Positions 43,772 to 55,163 of a stretch of DNA of 64,000 nucleotides are shown in pieces (position 1 is the first letter of the stretch; every line of letters begins with the position of its first letter). A model generated the notes under the pieces. It saw only the letters and a list, made by a program, of their open reading frames with translations, was not told where the DNA came from and made no database searches. Position numbers and translations under genes: made by a program. Source of the stretch: an uncultured Granulosicoccaceae bacterium (GTDB lineage: Bacteria > Pseudomonadota > Gammaproteobacteria > Granulosicoccales > Granulosicoccaceae); contig CALISD010000016.1 of assembly GCA_938041955.1 (NCBI GenBank), forward strand, positions 26,230 through 90,229. The letters are read 5' to 3'.

Positions 43772-45448
43772 TTATCTACGCTGTAGTTTTAAATACTCTA
43801 TCGCGTAGCGTCTACCGATTTCACGCATTGATGCAGCGTTAAAATGTATTCCATCGGTTGTTTGCAATCTGCTGGAACTGACACAGCCAGTATACGGATC
43901 ACTGTCTGAGTTCAGCGCCATTAGCCTGCGGTTCACTGGTGCAATCGTAAGCGGGTCTGGATTGGTTGTTTGTGTTTCTGCGCATATGAATATCGGTTTT
44001 TGTGTAGAGAACCACGGTTCTTGCCGAAGGTTCGAAATAAGCCGATACAGTCTGTCTGGATAGTAGTTCTCGTCAACCCTCTCCAGGCTGGTGGCGGTGA
44101 TATCTGATGTGCCGTTGAACTGAAAATCCGTTTCCCCCTGGTGCCAAAGGATTCCATCGAAGCTGGACTTTGAGCTAGCGTTTAGCGCATTCATCGCTTT
44201 GCCGGACAGGCTGCGATAGAAACTCCTGTCTTGATCCCAGTGCTTAATTCCAGCGCCGGGGGCGGTGATGAGTACGAAGCCAACCACACGTTGCGGGTCC
44301 AGGGTTACCAGCGCTTTGCCGAAGTGGAAAGCAAAGTTGTTGTGAGGGGCGTTGGTCGGAAAAATCAACGCATTATTTCCCGGGTGACGGATCTCATTTG
44401 GACCATCCCAGTGCTGTCTTAGATCTGCGACTTGCCAGGTATTGTTGTCGGTGTAGGCGAATACCTGATTGTTGCTTGCATCAAGGATGGCCAGGTCCGC
44501 GGTTGAATTGTTTCCCTGCGCATTAGATTGTCCGGTGACAAGAATCAGGTCAGTCAGGTCTGCTATGCCGGGTGTTCCGCTTGTCCGGGGATTGCTTGTT
44601 GGGTTGATGGAATTACTGCTCACCGAAACGTTCAGAGTACAACTTGCTGCGCCGTTCCAGCCGTAACCATCATTGTCTGCATCAACACAGGGGCCAGCGA
44701 CGTTGCCGGTTGCCGAGCGAGTATTGGTATCTGAAGGCTGCGCGCTCGCCGGTGCAGCCGTTTGGATCCTGTCTTCGGTAGAGTTTGATTGGTTGTCGCT
44801 CACCAGGCAGGAGCGAGTGCCGTCCCATCCGTATCCATCATTGTCAGGGTCAGCACATACCTGGTTGCTCACAGTACTTACCTGCGTCTGGCGTGTAGCG
44901 GAGGAGTTGACCGGTGGAGATTGGGTGATTGTTCGGCAGGTGGCTACCCCATTCCAGCCAAAGCCGTCGTTGTCACTATCAATGCATGGCCCGATACCAG
45001 TGGGTTCGACAGTTACCGAATCCGGGCGACTCAGCGTACAGTTCATGTTGGCAGTGCTGTTGGCGTACAGTGTAGCTACAGCGTAACGGGTATCATCAGG
45101 CGCGCCCGGCATTGACACACGCAAGGTTGTAGATGTGCGTGTGGTATCAATTGATGATCTCAAGACTCGAAAATTTGCTTGAGAATACGCCAACTGGGTG
45201 CTGGTAAAGTCAGAGGTAGTGGTTTGGCAGACCAGTTCCAGGTTGTCGGACGGTGTGGCATTGACTTCCTGATAAATGCACTCGGAGTCTAGGCCGATAT
45301 TGGCGTTGAAGCTTCTAATGCGATTGTTGTTACTGCATGAAACCCAATTATCGGACAATAAGTTGGGTCCCGCGTTTACGCTCACTGTTGAGAGCAACAA
45401 CACAAGAGCGGGCAGGTGAGCTAGCATTAGCCGATAGGTTGTTTTCAT
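43772..45448 (-). CDS. Secreted SASA/SGNH-type carbohydrate esterase with three Asp-rich cysteine repeats
   Basis: Signal peptide; LILVTGQSNAQGNN (block I), GILWHQGETDF, DGIHFNAASMREIGRRY (D-x-x-H block V). Confidence 0.8.
   Translation of the reverse strand: MKTTYRLMLAHLPALVLLLSTVSVNAGPNLLSDNWVSCSNNNRIRSFNANIGLDSECIYQEVNATPSDNLELVCQTTTSDFTSTQLAYSQANFRVLRSSIDTTRTSTTLRVSMPGAPDDTRYAVATLYANSTANMNCTLSRPDSVTVEPTGIGPCIDSDNDGFGWNGVATCRTITQSPPVNSSATRQTQVSTVSNQVCADPDNDGYGWDGTRSCLVSDNQSNSTEDRIQTAAPASAQPSDTNTRSATGNVAGPCVDADNDGYGWNGAASCTLNVSVSSNSINPTSNPRTSGTPGIADLTDLILVTGQSNAQGNNSTADLAILDASNNQVFAYTDNNTWQVADLRQHWDGPNEIRHPGNNALIFPTNAPHNNFAFHFGKALVTLDPQRVVGFVLITAPGAGIKHWDQDRSFYRSLSGKAMNALNASSKSSFDGILWHQGETDFQFNGTSDITATSLERVDENYYPDRLYRLISNLRQEPWFSTQKPIFICAETQTTNPDPLTIAPVNRRLMALNSDSDPYTGCVSSSRLQTTDGIHFNAASMREIGRRYAIEYLKLQRR
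44637..44993 (-). repeat. Three intragenic copies of a C-x-D-x-DNDG-[YF]-GW-[ND]-G-x2-[ST]-C repeat
   Basis: CIDSDNDGFGWNGVATC / CADPDNDGYGWDGTRSC / CVDADNDGYGWNGAASC. Confidence 0.85.
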
Positions 45449-47124: not shown

Positions 47125-47517
47125 AACCCAACTGTGCTTTGTTGATGAGAGGATTTGTTCTCCACGACGTGGATGAACCAGAGTTTATTGTAGCAGTGCC
47201 TGATTTGCTACGGGTGCGAGGCTCACACCAATACGTGTACAGCTGATACAGCAATGCAAGCAACCAGTATCTGGAATCGCAAGCGGTTTATACTTGTGTG
47301 TGTGCTTTTCATGTCTCGTCTCCGTCTGTTATATATATAGTTTAGTTTGGCTTCAAAACCAGACATTTTTGAGCTTGAAAAAAGCACAATTGTGGAGAAT
47401 TATGACAGTTTGTGTTGCTAGTTCAATTTGCTCGCGGCGCAGGTGCCAATAATTGTAATTTTGTCGTTTCAGTAATGTTTGTGGCCGGTGCGGTCTCTCT
47501 CTTGTGCGAGGTTAATG

Positions 47518-48282
47518 ATGTCTGAAGTGAACCAGATTCTAGATACGCTGAAGCAGCTTCTTAAAGAGAAAAATATCACTCAGTATGATGTTGCTGCGGT
47601 ACTCAACCTTGGTGTGGCTCGCGTAAAGCAGATGTTTGCCAATCAGGATTTTAGTATGAGTCGCCTGTCAATCATCTGTAATGAATTACTGGGTATGGAG
47701 ATTGTGGACTTAATCCAGGTCTCGCAAGATCGACAGAAATACATCGAGGGCCTTACCGAGAAACAAGAGCAGCAACTGATCTCAGATGAACGGCTGTTGG
47801 TGGTGTCAGTATCAATTATGAATAACCTGACTGCTGATGAAATTGTCGAACGATATGATATTTCTGAAGCTGAATGTCAGCAGCATTTAAAAACCCTGGA
47901 GAAGTTGAAGTTAATCAGTATTCGTGCAAATGGTCGAGTCAAATTACTCATTGATCGTAACTTCAAATGGATACCTAGTGGCCCACTTGAACAATTTTTT
48001 AGGCAGCATGTGCAAAGTGATTTTCTGGATTCCCGGTTTGATGCAGAGGGAGAAGTGCGGCTGTTTAGAACGGGTATGCTGACCAAACAATCTGCAGATG
48101 AGTTGATAAAAAAAATAGATAAACTCACAGCGGAATTTGTAGAGCTCAATCGTGAAGATACCAGGCTCGAATTAAAGTACAGAATAGGTTATAGCTTTGT
48201 TGTTGCATTGCGACCCTGGTTAATGCCGTCGTTCACCAGCCTGGTAAGATCCAATAGCCTGCCTGATGGCCCTACGGATTGA
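47518..48282 (+). CDS. XRE-family helix-turn-helix transcriptional regulator
   Basis: LKQLLKEKNITQYDVAAVLNLGVARVKQMFANQDFSMSRLSIICNELLGM. Confidence 0.8.
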   Translation: MSEVNQILDTLKQLLKEKNITQYDVAAVLNLGVARVKQMFANQDFSMSRLSIICNELLGMEIVDLIQVSQDRQKYIEGLTEKQEQQLISDERLLVVSVSIMNNLTADEIVERYDISEAECQQHLKTLEKLKLISIRANGRVKLLIDRNFKWIPSGPLEQFFRQHVQSDFLDSRFDAEGEVRLFRTGMLTKQSADELIKKIDKLTAEFVELNREDTRLELKYRIGYSFVVALRPWLMPSFTSLVRSNSLPDGPTD

Positions 48283-49168
48283 TGACATGCACACGAGGGC
48301 CTGACGAGTGCCATTTATGGGTGCCCTCGAGTGCCGCATGGTCCAGATGCGTGGTGTACCAGAAGACAATATCTTCTCTATCAATACTCTCGCTGTTGTC
48401 GAATAGATCGCCTATTTCAGCGCGAGCGCCCCAGCGCCAGCCAGAAGTCTCACCATTATTCCATTTACGTACCGCGACATCCCATTGGGAAAATTCGTCA
48501 GGAAACCCGTCGTTCGAACCCGGTGTCAATTCCACACGTAAGCCTGATTCGGCATCTCTTATTGTCCAGTAGTTGGTATTGGTTTTTCTATCATTGAACT
48601 CAGATGTCTGTAAGTTGCCGCTATTTTTGAGTACTTGATCGTTACTGCCGCCATCGAGATCGAAATCAAATAACCACTGTGCATGGTGGCGATGATCCGC
48701 GTCACACTGTAAGCCTCTGCTAAAAACAAAGGAATCAAAGAAACCTTCTGGACTAAATATGTAGGACTGATAAATCTCATATTCACCAAGCTTTGCGTTG
48801 ATGCCAAGTTCAAGAAACTCATCACCGTTCTGGGTATAAGTACGGCCACATAGTTTGTCTCCGTTACAGCTATCGTGCGGTGGATCTACATTGATAGGCA
48901 AATAGGTATCATTCCATAATATGTCTGCATAAGGTCCGCAAACATCATTGTCATACTCAACTCGCATCACAGGGAAACTAACGCGATGCAGAATGTTCCG
49001 GTTCTTATACTTTACATTGTTGAGTTCCAGACCAACGGCATTGTCGGTGGAGTAGGAGAAACTCCAATCGTGCCAGTCAATATCCCCTTGTTCCGCCATG
49101 GCCGCAGTAGTGGCTGTGAGAGACAGCATCAATAGGGCTAAAACGTAGTTAGTTTTTTCTTTGAGCAT
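48272..49168 (-). CDS. Exported copper amine oxidase catalytic-domain-like protein (short)
   Basis: Signal peptide; GLELNNVKYKNRNILHRVSFPVMRVEY; GEYEIYQSYIFSPEG (TPQ-position Tyr130); DHRHHAQWLFDFDLDG (H159-x-H161); EDIVFWYTTHLDH (H277). Confidence 0.7.
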   Translation of the reverse strand: MLKEKTNYVLALLMLSLTATTAAMAEQGDIDWHDWSFSYSTDNAVGLELNNVKYKNRNILHRVSFPVMRVEYDNDVCGPYADILWNDTYLPINVDPPHDSCNGDKLCGRTYTQNGDEFLELGINAKLGEYEIYQSYIFSPEGFFDSFVFSRGLQCDADHRHHAQWLFDFDLDGGSNDQVLKNSGNLQTSEFNDRKTNTNYWTIRDAESGLRVELTPGSNDGFPDEFSQWDVAVRKWNNGETSGWRWGARAEIGDLFDNSESIDREDIVFWYTTHLDHAALEGTHKWHSSGPRVHVINP

Positions 49169-50016
49169 TATTGCATTGCTCCACTACTTTCAACGCTTCC
49201 CTTGCTGAGATTAACCAGTGCTCGATAGTTAGGTATCGCGCCACCACCCGGACCAAAAGTGACATATAGTTTCCGGTCGCTGAAAAATACCTTGCCATCT
49301 TTAGCGACTTCACTTGCCGTGGGATAGGCGAGCAGTGCTGTGCCCTTGAGATGTATATGGTCGGCGAAGCCTTGCTCGTTTAGCGCGATGCTTGCCAGTG
49401 CTACTGCCTTTTGAACCTCTTGTTGAGATTCGGGAGGTTGATAGCTGCTGGCATCTGTCAGGGTGTAGCTGACAGTTCCATTAGCGCTGTATTTGGCAGT
49501 CAGTACTTTATTGCTTGTATAGATAAAGAACTCTGATTCGATCTGTGTGAGATTGCCTGCTTTGTCTTCGCGGTGGTGGTGGGTCAGCACTGCGTAGTTG
49601 TCACCGAGTTCAGCGACTAACTTTGGATCACTAAATATGGCGAGTTTTGCATCTTTCGCACTTGTTTTTTCTGATCTGCCAGCATCTTTTTCATTGCCGC
49701 TCACTGGAATTAATTTTTTCACGTTGGAGATGTTTCTTGGCTGTGGTGGCCAAATATCTTCGTTGGAATCAGTGAAGTATATTTCAGCTAATTGAGTGGT
49801 CGTCTGGACACCGGGGTTACTGCTGGGCTGAACAGTAGTTTGATGATCATCAGATCCCTGGTGGCTATTGGGATCAGTGTTAATTTGTGAATCGTCGCTA
49901 CCGTTGCAGCTGGACATAAATACCACGAGCACCACTGCCAGAAGCACGGTTGACCGGCGAACAATACGACCTACGATCCATTTTCGAAAATCAAGAGTTT
50001 GAGTTGACAAGTTCAT
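49168..50016 (-). CDS. Exported/lipoprotein, possible copper amine oxidase N-terminal (cystatin-like) domain
   Basis: Lipobox-like MSSC; C-terminal QQEVQKAVALASIALNEQGF...KVFFSDRKLYVTFGPGGGAIPNYRALVNLSKGSVE; stop/start overlap TAATG with downstream gene. Confidence 0.5.
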   Translation of the reverse strand: MNLSTQTLDFRKWIVGRIVRRSTVLLAVVLVVFMSSCNGSDDSQINTDPNSHQGSDDHQTTVQPSSNPGVQTTTQLAEIYFTDSNEDIWPPQPRNISNVKKLIPVSGNEKDAGRSEKTSAKDAKLAIFSDPKLVAELGDNYAVLTHHHREDKAGNLTQIESEFFIYTSNKVLTAKYSANGTVSYTLTDASSYQPPESQQEVQKAVALASIALNEQGFADHIHLKGTALLAYPTASEVAKDGKVFFSDRKLYVTFGPGGGAIPNYRALVNLSKGSVESSGAMQ

Positions 50017-50124: not shown

Positions 50125-51003
50125 TTATGATCGCAAAAGTGCGCAGACCACTGCCGTAACACCACGCATCGCATCGCGCCCAGAGCGGTGCCCATAATTA
50201 TTGAGCGCTTCTATCGCCTGTTGAACGGAAGAGGTGTCGTCGCTGAATATTGCGTTGATTAAGCGATGTAACGGGTCGACCGCCATGCCTTCACAGCTTG
50301 CATACAAGTGTGCCAGGCTTATGTGGTTGGTGCGGATATCAGCCTGAGTGTTTATGCATCGGGCGAGTGACGAAAATTTTTCAGCACAATTCAATTGGTG
50401 CAGCGTAACCATTGTACCGACCAGGATATCGTCTCCTGCAGGGGTCAGTCCTTCACCACAGCCGAGTAACTCCACCACGGCATTGGGAACACATTGAGAC
50501 GGTGATTGTAGCCACTGTTCTATGGCCTCTACTCCCGCTTGTAATCGTTGTTCTATTTTGTGTTGTAGATCGCCGATATACGGATCAGGTGATTCCTTAA
50601 GCAGTTTAAGAATGTTGCCATCAGGGAGGGTAGTTGTTTCTGTGTTGAGGCGCATCGGTGCCTCGAATGGCACACTATCGGAGTAGTCCAGAACGATGTC
50701 GTTACCCACATATAAACACTGGTCTTTGCAATACCATCTGGTGTTTAGCGCTATCGGGGATAATTGCCATTGTGATGTGCAGACATTGATCGGCCCACCG
50801 GGAAGCTTTGGGGTTCCAACACAGCATGAATGATGATCAGCGGTGCTTAGATAAAAGCTGTTGCCAAATACCGCTATGACATTGCCTGAACCTGAGTCAA
50901 GAACCCGTTGTGCAAGTTTACCGATCAGCGTTATACGATCGGTGTGACCGGTGAAGAGTGGTGTATCACCGCTGTGTTTACAGCTGGGCAAGTATCGCTG
51001 CAC
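50125..51003 (-). CDS. allH: DUF2877 protein (YlbF/AllH-like putative oxamate carbamoyltransferase subunit)
   Basis: LLGCGEGLTPAGDDILVGTMVTLH motif; immediately downstream of fdrA homologue. ORF opens at 51093 but true start probably GTG 51003 or TTG 50991. Confidence 0.75.
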   Translation of the reverse strand: MQRYLPSCKHSGDTPLFTGHTDRITLIGKLAQRVLDSGSGNVIAVFGNSFYLSTADHHSCCVGTPKLPGGPINVCTSQWQLSPIALNTRWYCKDQCLYVGNDIVLDYSDSVPFEAPMRLNTETTTLPDGNILKLLKESPDPYIGDLQHKIEQRLQAGVEAIEQWLQSPSQCVPNAVVELLGCGEGLTPAGDDILVGTMVTLHQLNCAEKFSSLARCINTQADIRTNHISLAHLYASCEGMAVDPLHRLINAIFSDDTSSVQQAIEALNNYGHRSGRDAMRGVTAVVCALLRS

Positions 51004-52459
51004 CCAGCTTTGCCATTTCGCTGTTGCAACTACAAAGAGTGACACCTGCTTGCTTAAGTACCTCGCACTGTTGTTGATAGTTTTGAGGATCATCGTTTGT
51101 GCCGCAGACAGTGCCGATCACTACCGGTTTGTCACTGACACCATGTAAGGTTTGCATGGCTTGAGTCACCTCATGTGCTGGATCATCGTGAGCGCCATAG
51201 CCGAGTACAACATCGAGCATTATCACAGCATTTGCCGGATCTTTTAGTTCTTCTAAAAGAAATGGTGTGCGTACTGCAGGTTCAAGCATTGGATGAGGTT
51301 TACCGAGTGTGTATTCGTCTGCGCCAAGATCAATTAACTGATGTGGTGTTGATGGATCGCTTTGCACAGCGTTGGAGCTAACGCGAACGCTGTTGTCTTT
51401 TAGTACCAGGTGAGCTTCAGTGCATAATGTGCCGCCGGTGTAGAGCCCTTTTAAATTTTTACGCTTTGCATTCATTCCTTTTGTAAGCGTTTTCGCGCTT
51501 TTATTATGATCAGATACTTCGAGCCTAGCACCGGAGGCCATCTCGGCTGCGGCAAGTAGCGTGCTGGCTTGTCGTATATTCTTTTCTTCTATTTCATTGA
51601 GCCCGAATACGCAGGCAATGGCAGGCTTGCCACAGTTGGCGAGTTTTTCAAATACTGCCTTGGCTGTTTTCTCACCAGGTGGTTTTGAGATCAGCACTAT
51701 TTGGTCCGTCAATTCATCTGCCGCAAGCAGGTCGATTGCCATCATTGTAGAAATCGCACCGACTTCGTCGCTCATATCTCGACCGCCAACCCCGATGCCA
51801 TGCCGGATCCCTGCGCCAAGCTTTGTTAATAGCACGGCAAATTCCTGGAGGCCGGTGCCGGAAGCTGCGATGACACTAGTGGTGCCCTTTGCCACTGCAT
51901 TGGCAAACGCCAACGGTACGCTATTGATATAGGCCGTGCCACAATCTGGCCCCATGACCAACAGGTCGAGATCACGTGCTTTTCGTTTAAGTGCCGCCTC
52001 TTTTTCGACTGAGACATTGTCGCTGAAAATCATTACATTCATACCGTGGTCAAGTGCCAGCTGTGCTTCTCGTGCAGCATATGCGCCCGGCGTTGAAATC
52101 AAAGCGAGGTTCATCTCCGGTGCTGCGGCACTGGCGCTACTCAATGTTGAATAGCGACGCTCGGAAGACGTGGTGTTTTTGGTTTTACCTTGCAGTGATT
52201 TCTGCGCTTGTGCCAATGCCCGGTTGGCGCTCGATGTGCCATCCGCACGCAGTGCGATCACCAGGTCGTTAGCGCCGGCAGCCTCACCTGTATCGTTTAA
52301 AAGACCCGCGTCTTTCATAATCTGCTTGTTGGCAGGTGTACCGGTCATCAGGACGGCGTCGAGGATACCGCCGAGTGCAGAGATGTCTGCCGACATTCGC
52401 ATCAGCGCCACTGAATCCAGATAAAAACCTTTGCGTACTTCGTTGATGATCTCACTCAT
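50978..52459 (-). CDS. fdrA: FdrA family protein (AllF-like putative oxamate carbamoyltransferase subunit)
   Basis: VRKGFYLDSVALMRMSADISALGG; LLVMGPDCGTAYINSVPLAFANAV; SGTGLQEF; ATGA overlap with upstream DUF1116 gene. Confidence 0.88.
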   Translation of the reverse strand: MSEIINEVRKGFYLDSVALMRMSADISALGGILDAVLMTGTPANKQIMKDAGLLNDTGEAAGANDLVIALRADGTSSANRALAQAQKSLQGKTKNTTSSERRYSTLSSASAAAPEMNLALISTPGAYAAREAQLALDHGMNVMIFSDNVSVEKEAALKRKARDLDLLVMGPDCGTAYINSVPLAFANAVAKGTTSVIAASGTGLQEFAVLLTKLGAGIRHGIGVGGRDMSDEVGAISTMMAIDLLAADELTDQIVLISKPPGEKTAKAVFEKLANCGKPAIACVFGLNEIEEKNIRQASTLLAAAEMASGARLEVSDHNKSAKTLTKGMNAKRKNLKGLYTGGTLCTEAHLVLKDNSVRVSSNAVQSDPSTPHQLIDLGADEYTLGKPHPMLEPAVRTPFLLEELKDPANAVIMLDVVLGYGAHDDPAHEVTQAMQTLHGVSDKPVVIGTVCGTNDDPQNYQQQCEVLKQAGVTLCSCNSEMAKLGAAILAQL

Positions 52460-53880
52460 ATCGCAGATAGCCTTTTGTCTAATGCGCGACAAGCTTGCTC
52501 AAAGCATGCTAGTGGTGCGTTAACGATGCCTGCGCCCACCTGACCGATGCCGGGTTCTTTGTGTGCGACACCCGTATTGATTGTCGGTGTAATTCCGGAG
52601 TTAACCACTTTGCGAACGTCTATACCGCTGGGCACACCTGCGAAGTCCAGCGCCGGTATAGTCCATTCCGGATTGCGGGTACAGGTAATTTCAGCCATTT
52701 GGTTGGTGTAGTTTGCTGCGTCTGAAGCACTGCCGGCACCTACAAAGCCTGCTACGGCAGGCGAGGCTGCCATTGCAAAGCCGCCCAAGCCAACGGTTTC
52801 TACGATGGTGGAATCACCCATGTCCGGGTTGGCATCTTTTTCACTGAAGCCGGGAAAATAAAGGCCGCGGGGCATCTCGACCGGAGCGGTGAACCATTCA
52901 TCTCCGCAGCCACTGACGCGAATACCAAACTCGGTGCCATTGCGTGACATAGCAGTGACCACTGAGCTGCCTGTTATGTCTCGCACCGGATCCATAATCG
53001 CTTTGCCCATGGCCATTGCGACGTTCAAGAAGAACTGATCGTTACCGGCGATAAAATTCAACACCTCATATGCCGTATCGGGTTCGGACACTCGTGCCAT
53101 CGTAGGAGCCAGTTCTCTCAGTAATAAACTGGTGCAAGCGACGTTGCGTTGGTGCATCTCGTCTCCCATGGATAAACCGCGAGCGATAATGTTTTTTAGC
53201 CCGACGCCATCACACGCTAATAAGGTGTCTGCCAGCAGTGGCCCGAGGGTGGATTCGAGCCAATGCAATTTTTCAATCACAGCCTCATCGTTGCCACCGA
53301 AACGCATGACTTTGCCCAGGCCCTCATTAATCGCGCAATACGCACGGTTGCCATGAGTACGATTCTCAACCACCATCAATGGCATTGATTGAGTGGTCAT
53401 GCCAGTCATCGGACCAACGGCACCATGATGATGATTGGGGCTAAATTCGATTTCTCCGCTGGCGGCGAGTTGTTCTGCCGCTTCGAGCGTTTTGGCCCAG
53501 CCTTCAAGCACTATCGCACCGCACACTGCACCGCGCATTGGACCACACATAGCATCCCACGCCAGTGGAGGGCCGGCGTGCAGTATTTGATGCTTGCCGA
53601 GTCCCTCTATCAAATCCCCGGCGGGCTGTACTTCAACCAATACCGGATCTGCCGAGAGCATGCGTTCAATGGCTTTCTCGTTCGCCTTGTCAATCATTTC
53701 GGCAAGGCTGTTATTTGACAGTCGGTCAGCAGCAGCAAGCACCTCGGGATTGGTGGTCGCTGGGGGGCGCCAGTCAACGGCCAGTGCTGGAATGTTCTGC
53801 GACTGCAGGTCGCTAACAAATCCGTTCAGGCCTACACCCAGCACTTTTGGGCCGCTTGTTAGTAGATCGCTTGCAGACAT
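52456..53880 (-). CDS. allG: DUF1116 protein (YlbE/AllG-like putative oxamate carbamoyltransferase subunit)
   Basis: VDWRPPATTNPEVLAA; GPMRGAVCGAIVLEGWAKT; ENRTHGNRAYCAINEGLGKVMRFGGND. Confidence 0.85.
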   Translation of the reverse strand: MSASDLLTSGPKVLGVGLNGFVSDLQSQNIPALAVDWRPPATTNPEVLAAADRLSNNSLAEMIDKANEKAIERMLSADPVLVEVQPAGDLIEGLGKHQILHAGPPLAWDAMCGPMRGAVCGAIVLEGWAKTLEAAEQLAASGEIEFSPNHHHGAVGPMTGMTTQSMPLMVVENRTHGNRAYCAINEGLGKVMRFGGNDEAVIEKLHWLESTLGPLLADTLLACDGVGLKNIIARGLSMGDEMHQRNVACTSLLLRELAPTMARVSEPDTAYEVLNFIAGNDQFFLNVAMAMGKAIMDPVRDITGSSVVTAMSRNGTEFGIRVSGCGDEWFTAPVEMPRGLYFPGFSEKDANPDMGDSTIVETVGLGGFAMAASPAVAGFVGAGSASDAANYTNQMAEITCTRNPEWTIPALDFAGVPSGIDVRKVVNSGITPTINTGVAHKEPGIGQVGAGIVNAPLACFEQACRALDKRLSAI

Positions 53881-53894
53881 AGTTTATCTCTCAA

Positions 53895-55163
53895 TCAAGC
53901 GTTGGTGATGTTGTTGCTGAATGCATCGTGGCTCGGGTCGTTATAAACCGCCAACGCAGCATCTACCCCGGCACCTGCAGGCGCACTGTGACCATTGCGT
54001 CGCAAGGTCATTTCAAGCGCTGCCAGGCAAGCGAGTACGTTGTCTTTGCGGCAACCGTAGCCCATGGTACCGATGCGCCAGATTTTGCCGTGTAGTGGTC
54101 CGAAAGAGGTGCCGATTTCAATGGCGAAGTCATGCAGCATCTCGCCGCGTAGTTTGTCCGCATCAACTCCCTTCGGGATTACCACGCCCGTAACGTTGGG
54201 CATTTTATACTGCAGATCTTTGCCAAACACTTCGAGGTCCATCGCTCGTAAGCCATTCACCAGCGCGGTACTGGTTTGGTTATGCCGTGCGAATCGAGTC
54301 TGCCACCCTTCCTGCAGGACTATTCGGGCACATTCACGTGCGGCATACAACATTGAGGTGGCTTCAGTGTGATGGTTAAGTCGTGCTTCGCTCCAGTAGT
54401 CCATGATCATGGCAAGATCGAAGTAGTTCGATTGAATCATTTCACCGTCTGCTGCCTGATAATTATCAGGCCTGATCCCCTGTTCTATATGCTTGCGGCG
54501 CTGTATCAGTTCGGCGGCACGATCATTCAATGTGATCGGTGCAATACCTGGCGGGCCCGACAGGCACTTTTGCAATCCTGCGGTGACGGCATCTATTTGC
54601 CAATCATCAGTGTCGAGTGGCATTCCGGTTAGAGAGGCAGTGGCATCTACGGCGATCAACACATCGTGTGCTCTGCAGATTTTGCCTATCTCATTCAGTG
54701 GCTGTGCCATGGTGGTTGAAGTATCGCCTTGCACACAAGCCAGCAATTTAGGTCGGTGCTGAATAATGGCGTCTTCAATTTGCTGCGGATCAAATACCTG
54801 ACCCCACTCTGCTTCGATTGTTATTACTTCAGCGCGGCAGCGACCAGCAATTTCAGCCAGCAGATGACCGAAGCGACCAAATACCGGTACCAGCACCTTA
54901 TCTCCAGGGCTTAGCAACGAGACCATCACGGCCTCAATGCCCGCTCTTGCTGTGCCATCGACCAGTAACGTCCATTCGTTGCGGGTTTGAAAAATGCCAC
55001 GATACAGAGACATCACTTCATTCATGTAGCTGGTGAAGCGCGGATCGAATTGACCCAGCATGGGCATCGACATAGCATTGAGAACGCGCGGATCAACCTC
55101 AACCGGGCCCGGGCCCATCAGTCGGCAGGCCGGTGGATTTAAGTCCTGAAAGAGATTTTGCAT
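53895..55163 (-). CDS. Alanine-glyoxylate / (S)-ureidoglycine-glyoxylate-type aminotransferase (PucG-like)
   Basis: MGPGPVEVDPRVLNAMSMPMLGQFDPRFTSYMNEV; VDATASLTGMPLDTDDWQIDAVTAGLQKCLSGPPGIAP PLP-lysine motif. Confidence 0.85.
   Translation of the reverse strand: MQNLFQDLNPPACRLMGPGPVEVDPRVLNAMSMPMLGQFDPRFTSYMNEVMSLYRGIFQTRNEWTLLVDGTARAGIEAVMVSLLSPGDKVLVPVFGRFGHLLAEIAGRCRAEVITIEAEWGQVFDPQQIEDAIIQHRPKLLACVQGDTSTTMAQPLNEIGKICRAHDVLIAVDATASLTGMPLDTDDWQIDAVTAGLQKCLSGPPGIAPITLNDRAAELIQRRKHIEQGIRPDNYQAADGEMIQSNYFDLAMIMDYWSEARLNHHTEATSMLYAARECARIVLQEGWQTRFARHNQTSTALVNGLRAMDLEVFGKDLQYKMPNVTGVVIPKGVDADKLRGEMLHDFAIEIGTSFGPLHGKIWRIGTMGYGCRKDNVLACLAALEMTLRRNGHSAPAGAGVDAALAVYNDPSHDAFSNNITNA

Follow-up and report, generated by a model that had tools for sequence, protein, structure and literature searches.

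The locus examined here raises the question of whether a single-domain protein of 298 aa can be a working copper amine oxidase and, if so, where the rest of the enzyme is encoded. All structurally characterized members of this family are homodimers of ~70–80 kDa chains that carry domains D2, D3, and D4 together (PMC3382800). The small protein is encoded in a 64,000-nucleotide stretch (“the window”) of contig CALISD010000016.1 from an uncultured Granulosicoccaceae bacterium, a marine gammaproteobacterium, and the features discussed below are the following:

47479..48282 (+), gene for an HTH regulator (Pfam HTH_26), convergent with the catalytic gene
48272..49168 (-), mini catalytic (D4-like) subunit, 298 aa, single domain
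48338..48340 (-), codon 277, His, predicted third copper ligand (alignment)
48686..48694 (-), codons 159–161, H-R-H, predicted first and second copper ligands (alignment)
48779..48781 (-), codon 130, Tyr, predicted topaquinone precursor, preceded by Glu129 (hhalign and MAFFT alignment)
48923..48925 (-), codon 82, Asp, predicted catalytic base in a Y/F-x-D motif (MAFFT, conserved in 22/22)
49168..50016 (-), lipoprotein, 282 aa, lipobox MSSC, directly upstream of the catalytic gene

The 298-aa protein, which begins with a Sec signal peptide (approximately residues 1–25), had been described in an initial annotation as a copper-amine-oxidase-like catalytic domain, and an HMM search with PF01179 (Cu_amine_oxid) had been proposed as a check. 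Profile similarity was present: the Pfam model matched with an E-value of 3.1e-13 and 49.9 bits, above its curated gathering cut-off of 27 bits, and it also matched all 22 relatives of the protein. In a profile–profile comparison (hhalign), the mini family aligned to canonical catalytic domains with a probability of 97% and with the Tyr and the HxH motif in register. Given these three results, a chance resemblance to copper amine oxidases is excluded. The NCBIfam model for primary-amine oxidase (NF008559) gave 35.6 bits, below its curated cut-off of 651, and the E. coli enzyme was picked up by the mini-family profile via four weak collinear segments. The AlphaFold2 model of the protein (pLDDT 82.9, pTM 0.85, with low confidence around D82 and just beyond) had copper amine oxidases as all of its best 50 PDB matches in Foldseek (E-values of ~1e-14 to 3e-13), and TMq values of 0.67–0.79 are consistent with the catalytic beta-sandwich fold. 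HMM, profile–profile, and fold evidence thus all support placing the protein in the copper amine oxidase fold.

We next consider the catalytic residues. Translation of the open reading frame confirmed that Y130 lies in LGEYEIYQSYIFSPEG, that H159-R-H161 is followed by D172-G173 at +13/+14, and that H277 sits seven residues after W270. An unguided MAFFT alignment that combined the mini-proteins with canonical, three-gene, and fused forms set Y130 on the cofactor Tyr and H159, H161, and H277 on the three copper ligands; together with the HMM, profile–profile, and fold results, this upholds the earlier claim that every cofactor and metal position is retained. The same alignment placed Y72 with the Tyr that positions topaquinone (TPQ) and matched D82 to the base Asp in every canonical sequence, two further retained positions that were absent from the original list, and all six residues are invariant in the 22 relatives. 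The acidic residue at +1 of the Tyr, also pointed out initially, is present in the window protein but is not a family feature, being Gln in 11 of the 22. Relative to its canonical counterparts, the mini domain is shorter by ~36 residues between the base and the Tyr, 21 between the Tyr and HxH, 41–43 from HxH to the third His, and 18–26 at the C-terminus. This amounts to about 130 missing residues (~270 aa vs ~400 aa), some of which may belong to the dimer arms.

The main doubt over function comes from the residue before the cofactor Tyr. The motif around Y130, A-K-L-G-E-Y-E, lacks the Thr and carries Glu where Asn is expected, a departure that the initial annotation had noted and that extends across the family, with Glu in 21 relatives, Asp in one, and Asn in none. 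The residue at this position is Asn in canonical enzymes, mostly Ala or Ser in the three-gene relatives described below, and Trp in a more distant fused form. In the Arthrobacter enzyme, the N381A variant still forms topaquinone, although biogenesis is 180-fold slower and kcat is reduced 160-fold (PMC9491219), and by analogy the chemistry of the mini-protein may differ from that of canonical enzymes. On the other hand, one natural family has fixed an acidic residue at this position and another Ala or Ser, which suggests that the rest of the active site has adapted to a residue other than Asn.

The gene directly upstream offers a candidate for the remaining domains. Its stop codon overlaps the start codon of the catalytic gene (TAATG), and its product has a predicted layout of a disordered linker with His residues followed by two alpha-beta4 domains. 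In the AlphaFold2 model of the mature chain, pLDDT exceeds 90 across most of residues 90–246, and copper amine oxidases fill the first 37 places among its PDB matches (Foldseek probability 0.99–1.00, best E-value 1.6e-4), after which the list falls sharply to noise. Since the beta-sandwich catalytic domain is unable to explain this fold match, the two domains appear to be the equivalent of the copper amine oxidase N2–N3 pair; in known enzymes, D2 and D3 are two near-identical small alpha/beta domains of ~100 residues (PMC3382800). Searches of Pfam, NCBIfam, and PDB with the lipoprotein sequence gave no significant match. A direct comparison to N2–N3 yielded an hhalign probability of 6%, with a local match out of register, and a pairwise E-value of 0.006; the corresponding values were 6–10% against the N gene of the three-gene form and, in a small search set, an E-value of 0.056 for the lipoprotein profile against the N-terminal half of the distant fused form. 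Because direct sequence similarity is weak, the N2–N3 assignment leans on the predicted fold and on these intermediates. The description of the catalytic domain as “stripped-down” thus holds for its length, but not in the sense of a stand-alone protein, as N2–N3 apparently reside on the overlapping upstream gene.

Next, we evaluated how consistently the two genes occur together. A contig scan recovered 11 loci, all from Granulosicoccaceae or Chromatiales MAGs, including one bryozoan-associated, and whole-genome searches across 40 family genomes identified 22 distinct catalytic copies, spread over 15 genomes that belong to three genera of a single family. When the same 40 genomes were searched with the lipoprotein profile, the 22 copies recovered lay in these same 15 genomes and coincided in position with the catalytic ones, each directly upstream of a catalytic gene and in the same order, i.e., the two genes pair strictly one-to-one. 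In all 22 pairs, the catalytic start codon lies between -4 and +10 nt from the lipoprotein stop codon; overlaps of 4 nt or 1 nt are frequent, the 4-nt ATGA overlap being the commonest arrangement. About half of the copies are single-domain proteins like that of the window. The remainder are longer paralogues from the same genera (605–645 aa; L014, L016, and others) with a ~50% identical catalytic domain and the same kind of upstream lipoprotein, which, unlike the mini-protein, carry C-terminal CBM_4_9-like carbohydrate-binding domains, except where truncated by a contig end. Several genomes hold one single-domain and one long copy. Distant relatives in other gammaproteobacterial families are rare: counting the window’s own genome each time, there were 4 positives among 369 genomes of the class and 3 among 399 of the phylum. 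Relative to locus L006, dN/dS is ~0.036 for the catalytic gene and ~0.18 for the lipoprotein gene; synonymous change therefore far exceeds replacement change, and both are working genes under strong purifying selection. The lipoprotein evolves faster (dN 0.19 vs 0.06).

Separation of the N-terminal domains from the catalytic part is not restricted to this pair. A second arrangement was found in the window’s own genome:

G000:C92, L072:1499-5150, three-gene split copper amine oxidase, with N2–N3-like, degenerate, and intact genes

In the window’s own genome, a 249-aa protein precedes two catalytic-type proteins, of which one is degenerate and the other intact. The degenerate member lacks the Tyr and HxH, and the intact one probably carries a membrane anchor at its C-terminus. 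Of the 40 family genomes, 24 encode relatives of the 249-aa protein, and the profile of these relatives matches canonical N2–N3 with an hhalign probability of 91–92%; counting the two-gene pair as well, N2–N3 is separated from the catalytic part in at least two forms within this bacterial family. Like the mini pair, these loci have a separate upstream N2–N3-like gene and a replaced Asn, and members with Ala or Ser before the Tyr keep every other catalytic residue. They differ in having both degenerate and intact catalytic proteins, longer domains, and an N protein that is not obviously a lipoprotein. The degenerate and intact proteins could possibly form an active/inactive heterodimer. One three-gene locus (L073:1-5324) has, by eye, a di-haem cytochrome c peroxidase/MauG-like gene as its neighbor, and at L076:1546-9033 an SCO1-like gene and a cytochrome c gene were noted nearby in the same way. 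In another bacterial family, a single 561-aa frame (L069) has the catalytic relative as its C-terminal part, and a FYDY...RYQPLPTNAEF stretch in its N-terminal half resembles the lipoprotein, so that this distant protein appears to fuse both halves in one chain. Elsewhere in the class, L070 and L107 each show, by eye, a similarly organized lipoprotein upstream and lack the third copper His. At L074 and L107, a lipoprotein accompanies a catalytic-type protein in which the Tyr, the base, and HxH persist and the third copper His is gone (RDST); this pair adjoins a multihaem cytochrome gene, and copper loss or a changed function is possible.

The best explanation for the window locus, and one that we consider quite probable, is a two-gene split, miniaturized, membrane-tethered copper amine oxidase that is not degenerate. 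Homology, fold, residue retention, gene pairing, and selection are established computationally, and by analogy with the established chemistry of the family, the retained residue set should suffice for copper-dependent Tyr self-processing and amine oxidation. Tyr130 of the exported protein would self-process to topaquinone with Cu(II) coordinated by H159, H161, and H277, and D82 would act as the base that abstracts a proton. The lipoprotein, presumably translationally coupled to the catalytic gene, would fold as an N2–N3 pair and dock on the catalytic domain, tether it to a membrane, and probably shape the substrate entrance. Such a complex would act outside the cytoplasm and oxidize primary amines, yielding aldehyde, ammonia, and H2O2, and because the sister paralogues carry carbohydrate-binding domains, the substrates may be surface- or polymer-bound amines.

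Among the alternatives, most weight falls on a copper-binding, non-catalytic relative involved in storage, sensing, or adhesion, which would keep the fold and the metal site without making or using topaquinone. We judge this unlikely, even though the Glu or Asp before the Tyr in all 22 relatives, the shortened domain, and the slow N381A variant would each be in line with it. A pure metal site needs neither D82, Y72, nor Y130, yet all three are invariant in the mini family, and while related split loci do hold degenerate members (the type without Tyr and HxH, and L070 and L107 without the third His), it is precisely in these recognizably degenerate relatives that such residues or ligands are lost. 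Moreover, topaquinone still forms in N381A, and the Ala/Ser three-gene relatives are otherwise catalytically complete. The option of a degenerate copper-binding relative, left open in the initial annotation, is likewise disfavored by the strong purifying selection and the six invariant catalytic positions. A second alternative, to which we assign a distinctly lower probability, accepts both homologies and makes the lipoprotein a transient assembly or copper-delivery factor rather than part of one enzyme. Its faster evolution and the many lipoproteins with His-containing linkers could be read this way, whereas its predicted fold corresponds to N2–N3, which are structural parts of canonical enzymes, L069 appears to hold both halves in one chain, and pairing is strictly one-to-one. 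Finally, the idea that the gene is a remnant of a full-length enzyme (a fragment or pseudogene) or a product of misassembly has only the short length in its favor and is refuted to near certainty by 22 distinct loci with intact frames in independent genomes, by the protein’s own signal peptide and its partner’s lipobox, and by a dN/dS of ~0.04.

Compared with canonical topaquinone enzymes such as AGAO (Arthrobacter globiformis) and ECAO (E. coli), the split mini enzyme proposed here has in common the catalytic fold, the copper His triad, the cofactor Tyr, the base Asp, the TPQ-positioning Tyr, and N2–N3-like domains. It differs in being encoded by two genes, with N2 and N3 predicted from the fold to lie on a lipoprotein instead of in the same polypeptide, and in having Glu or Asp in place of Asn before the Tyr. 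Lysyl oxidase, with its LTQ cofactor, is also small and also combines copper, a Tyr-derived quinone, and amine oxidation. It is, however, non-homologous to topaquinone enzymes (PMC3382800). No description of a split or two-gene copper amine oxidase was found in the open-access literature. More tentatively, and with somewhat less than even confidence, the pair may represent a new class of two-component copper amine oxidases, characterized by separate coupled genes, a membrane tether, a Glu or Asp for Asn that alters biogenesis or catalysis, and an active site open to large or polymer-bound amines. If the split-enzyme reading is correct, a ~30-kDa catalytic subunit would reveal the parts required for self-processing to topaquinone and provide a compact scaffold for quinone biogenesis studies, the two-piece enzyme would show the role of N2–N3, and the Glu would tell whether the conserved Asn is dispensable once a carboxylate takes its place.

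Beyond the pair, neighboring genes differ between the 12 loci compared, and scans for promoters and terminators returned nothing usable. The convergent HTH gene was considered as a member of the core unit and rejected because it adjoins the pair in only 5 of these loci. Upstream, window positions 50125-55163 (-) encode AllH, CoA-ligase/FdrA-like, AllG, and class-V aminotransferase genes, likely an oxamate/ureide degradation cluster, which was rejected as an operon partner because it lies beside the pair in only 3 of the 12 loci. On the other side, positions 43772-45448 (-) encode a sialate O-acetylesterase-like carbohydrate esterase (SASA); judged by eye, its N-terminal region is similar to the CBM-like domains of the long paralogues.
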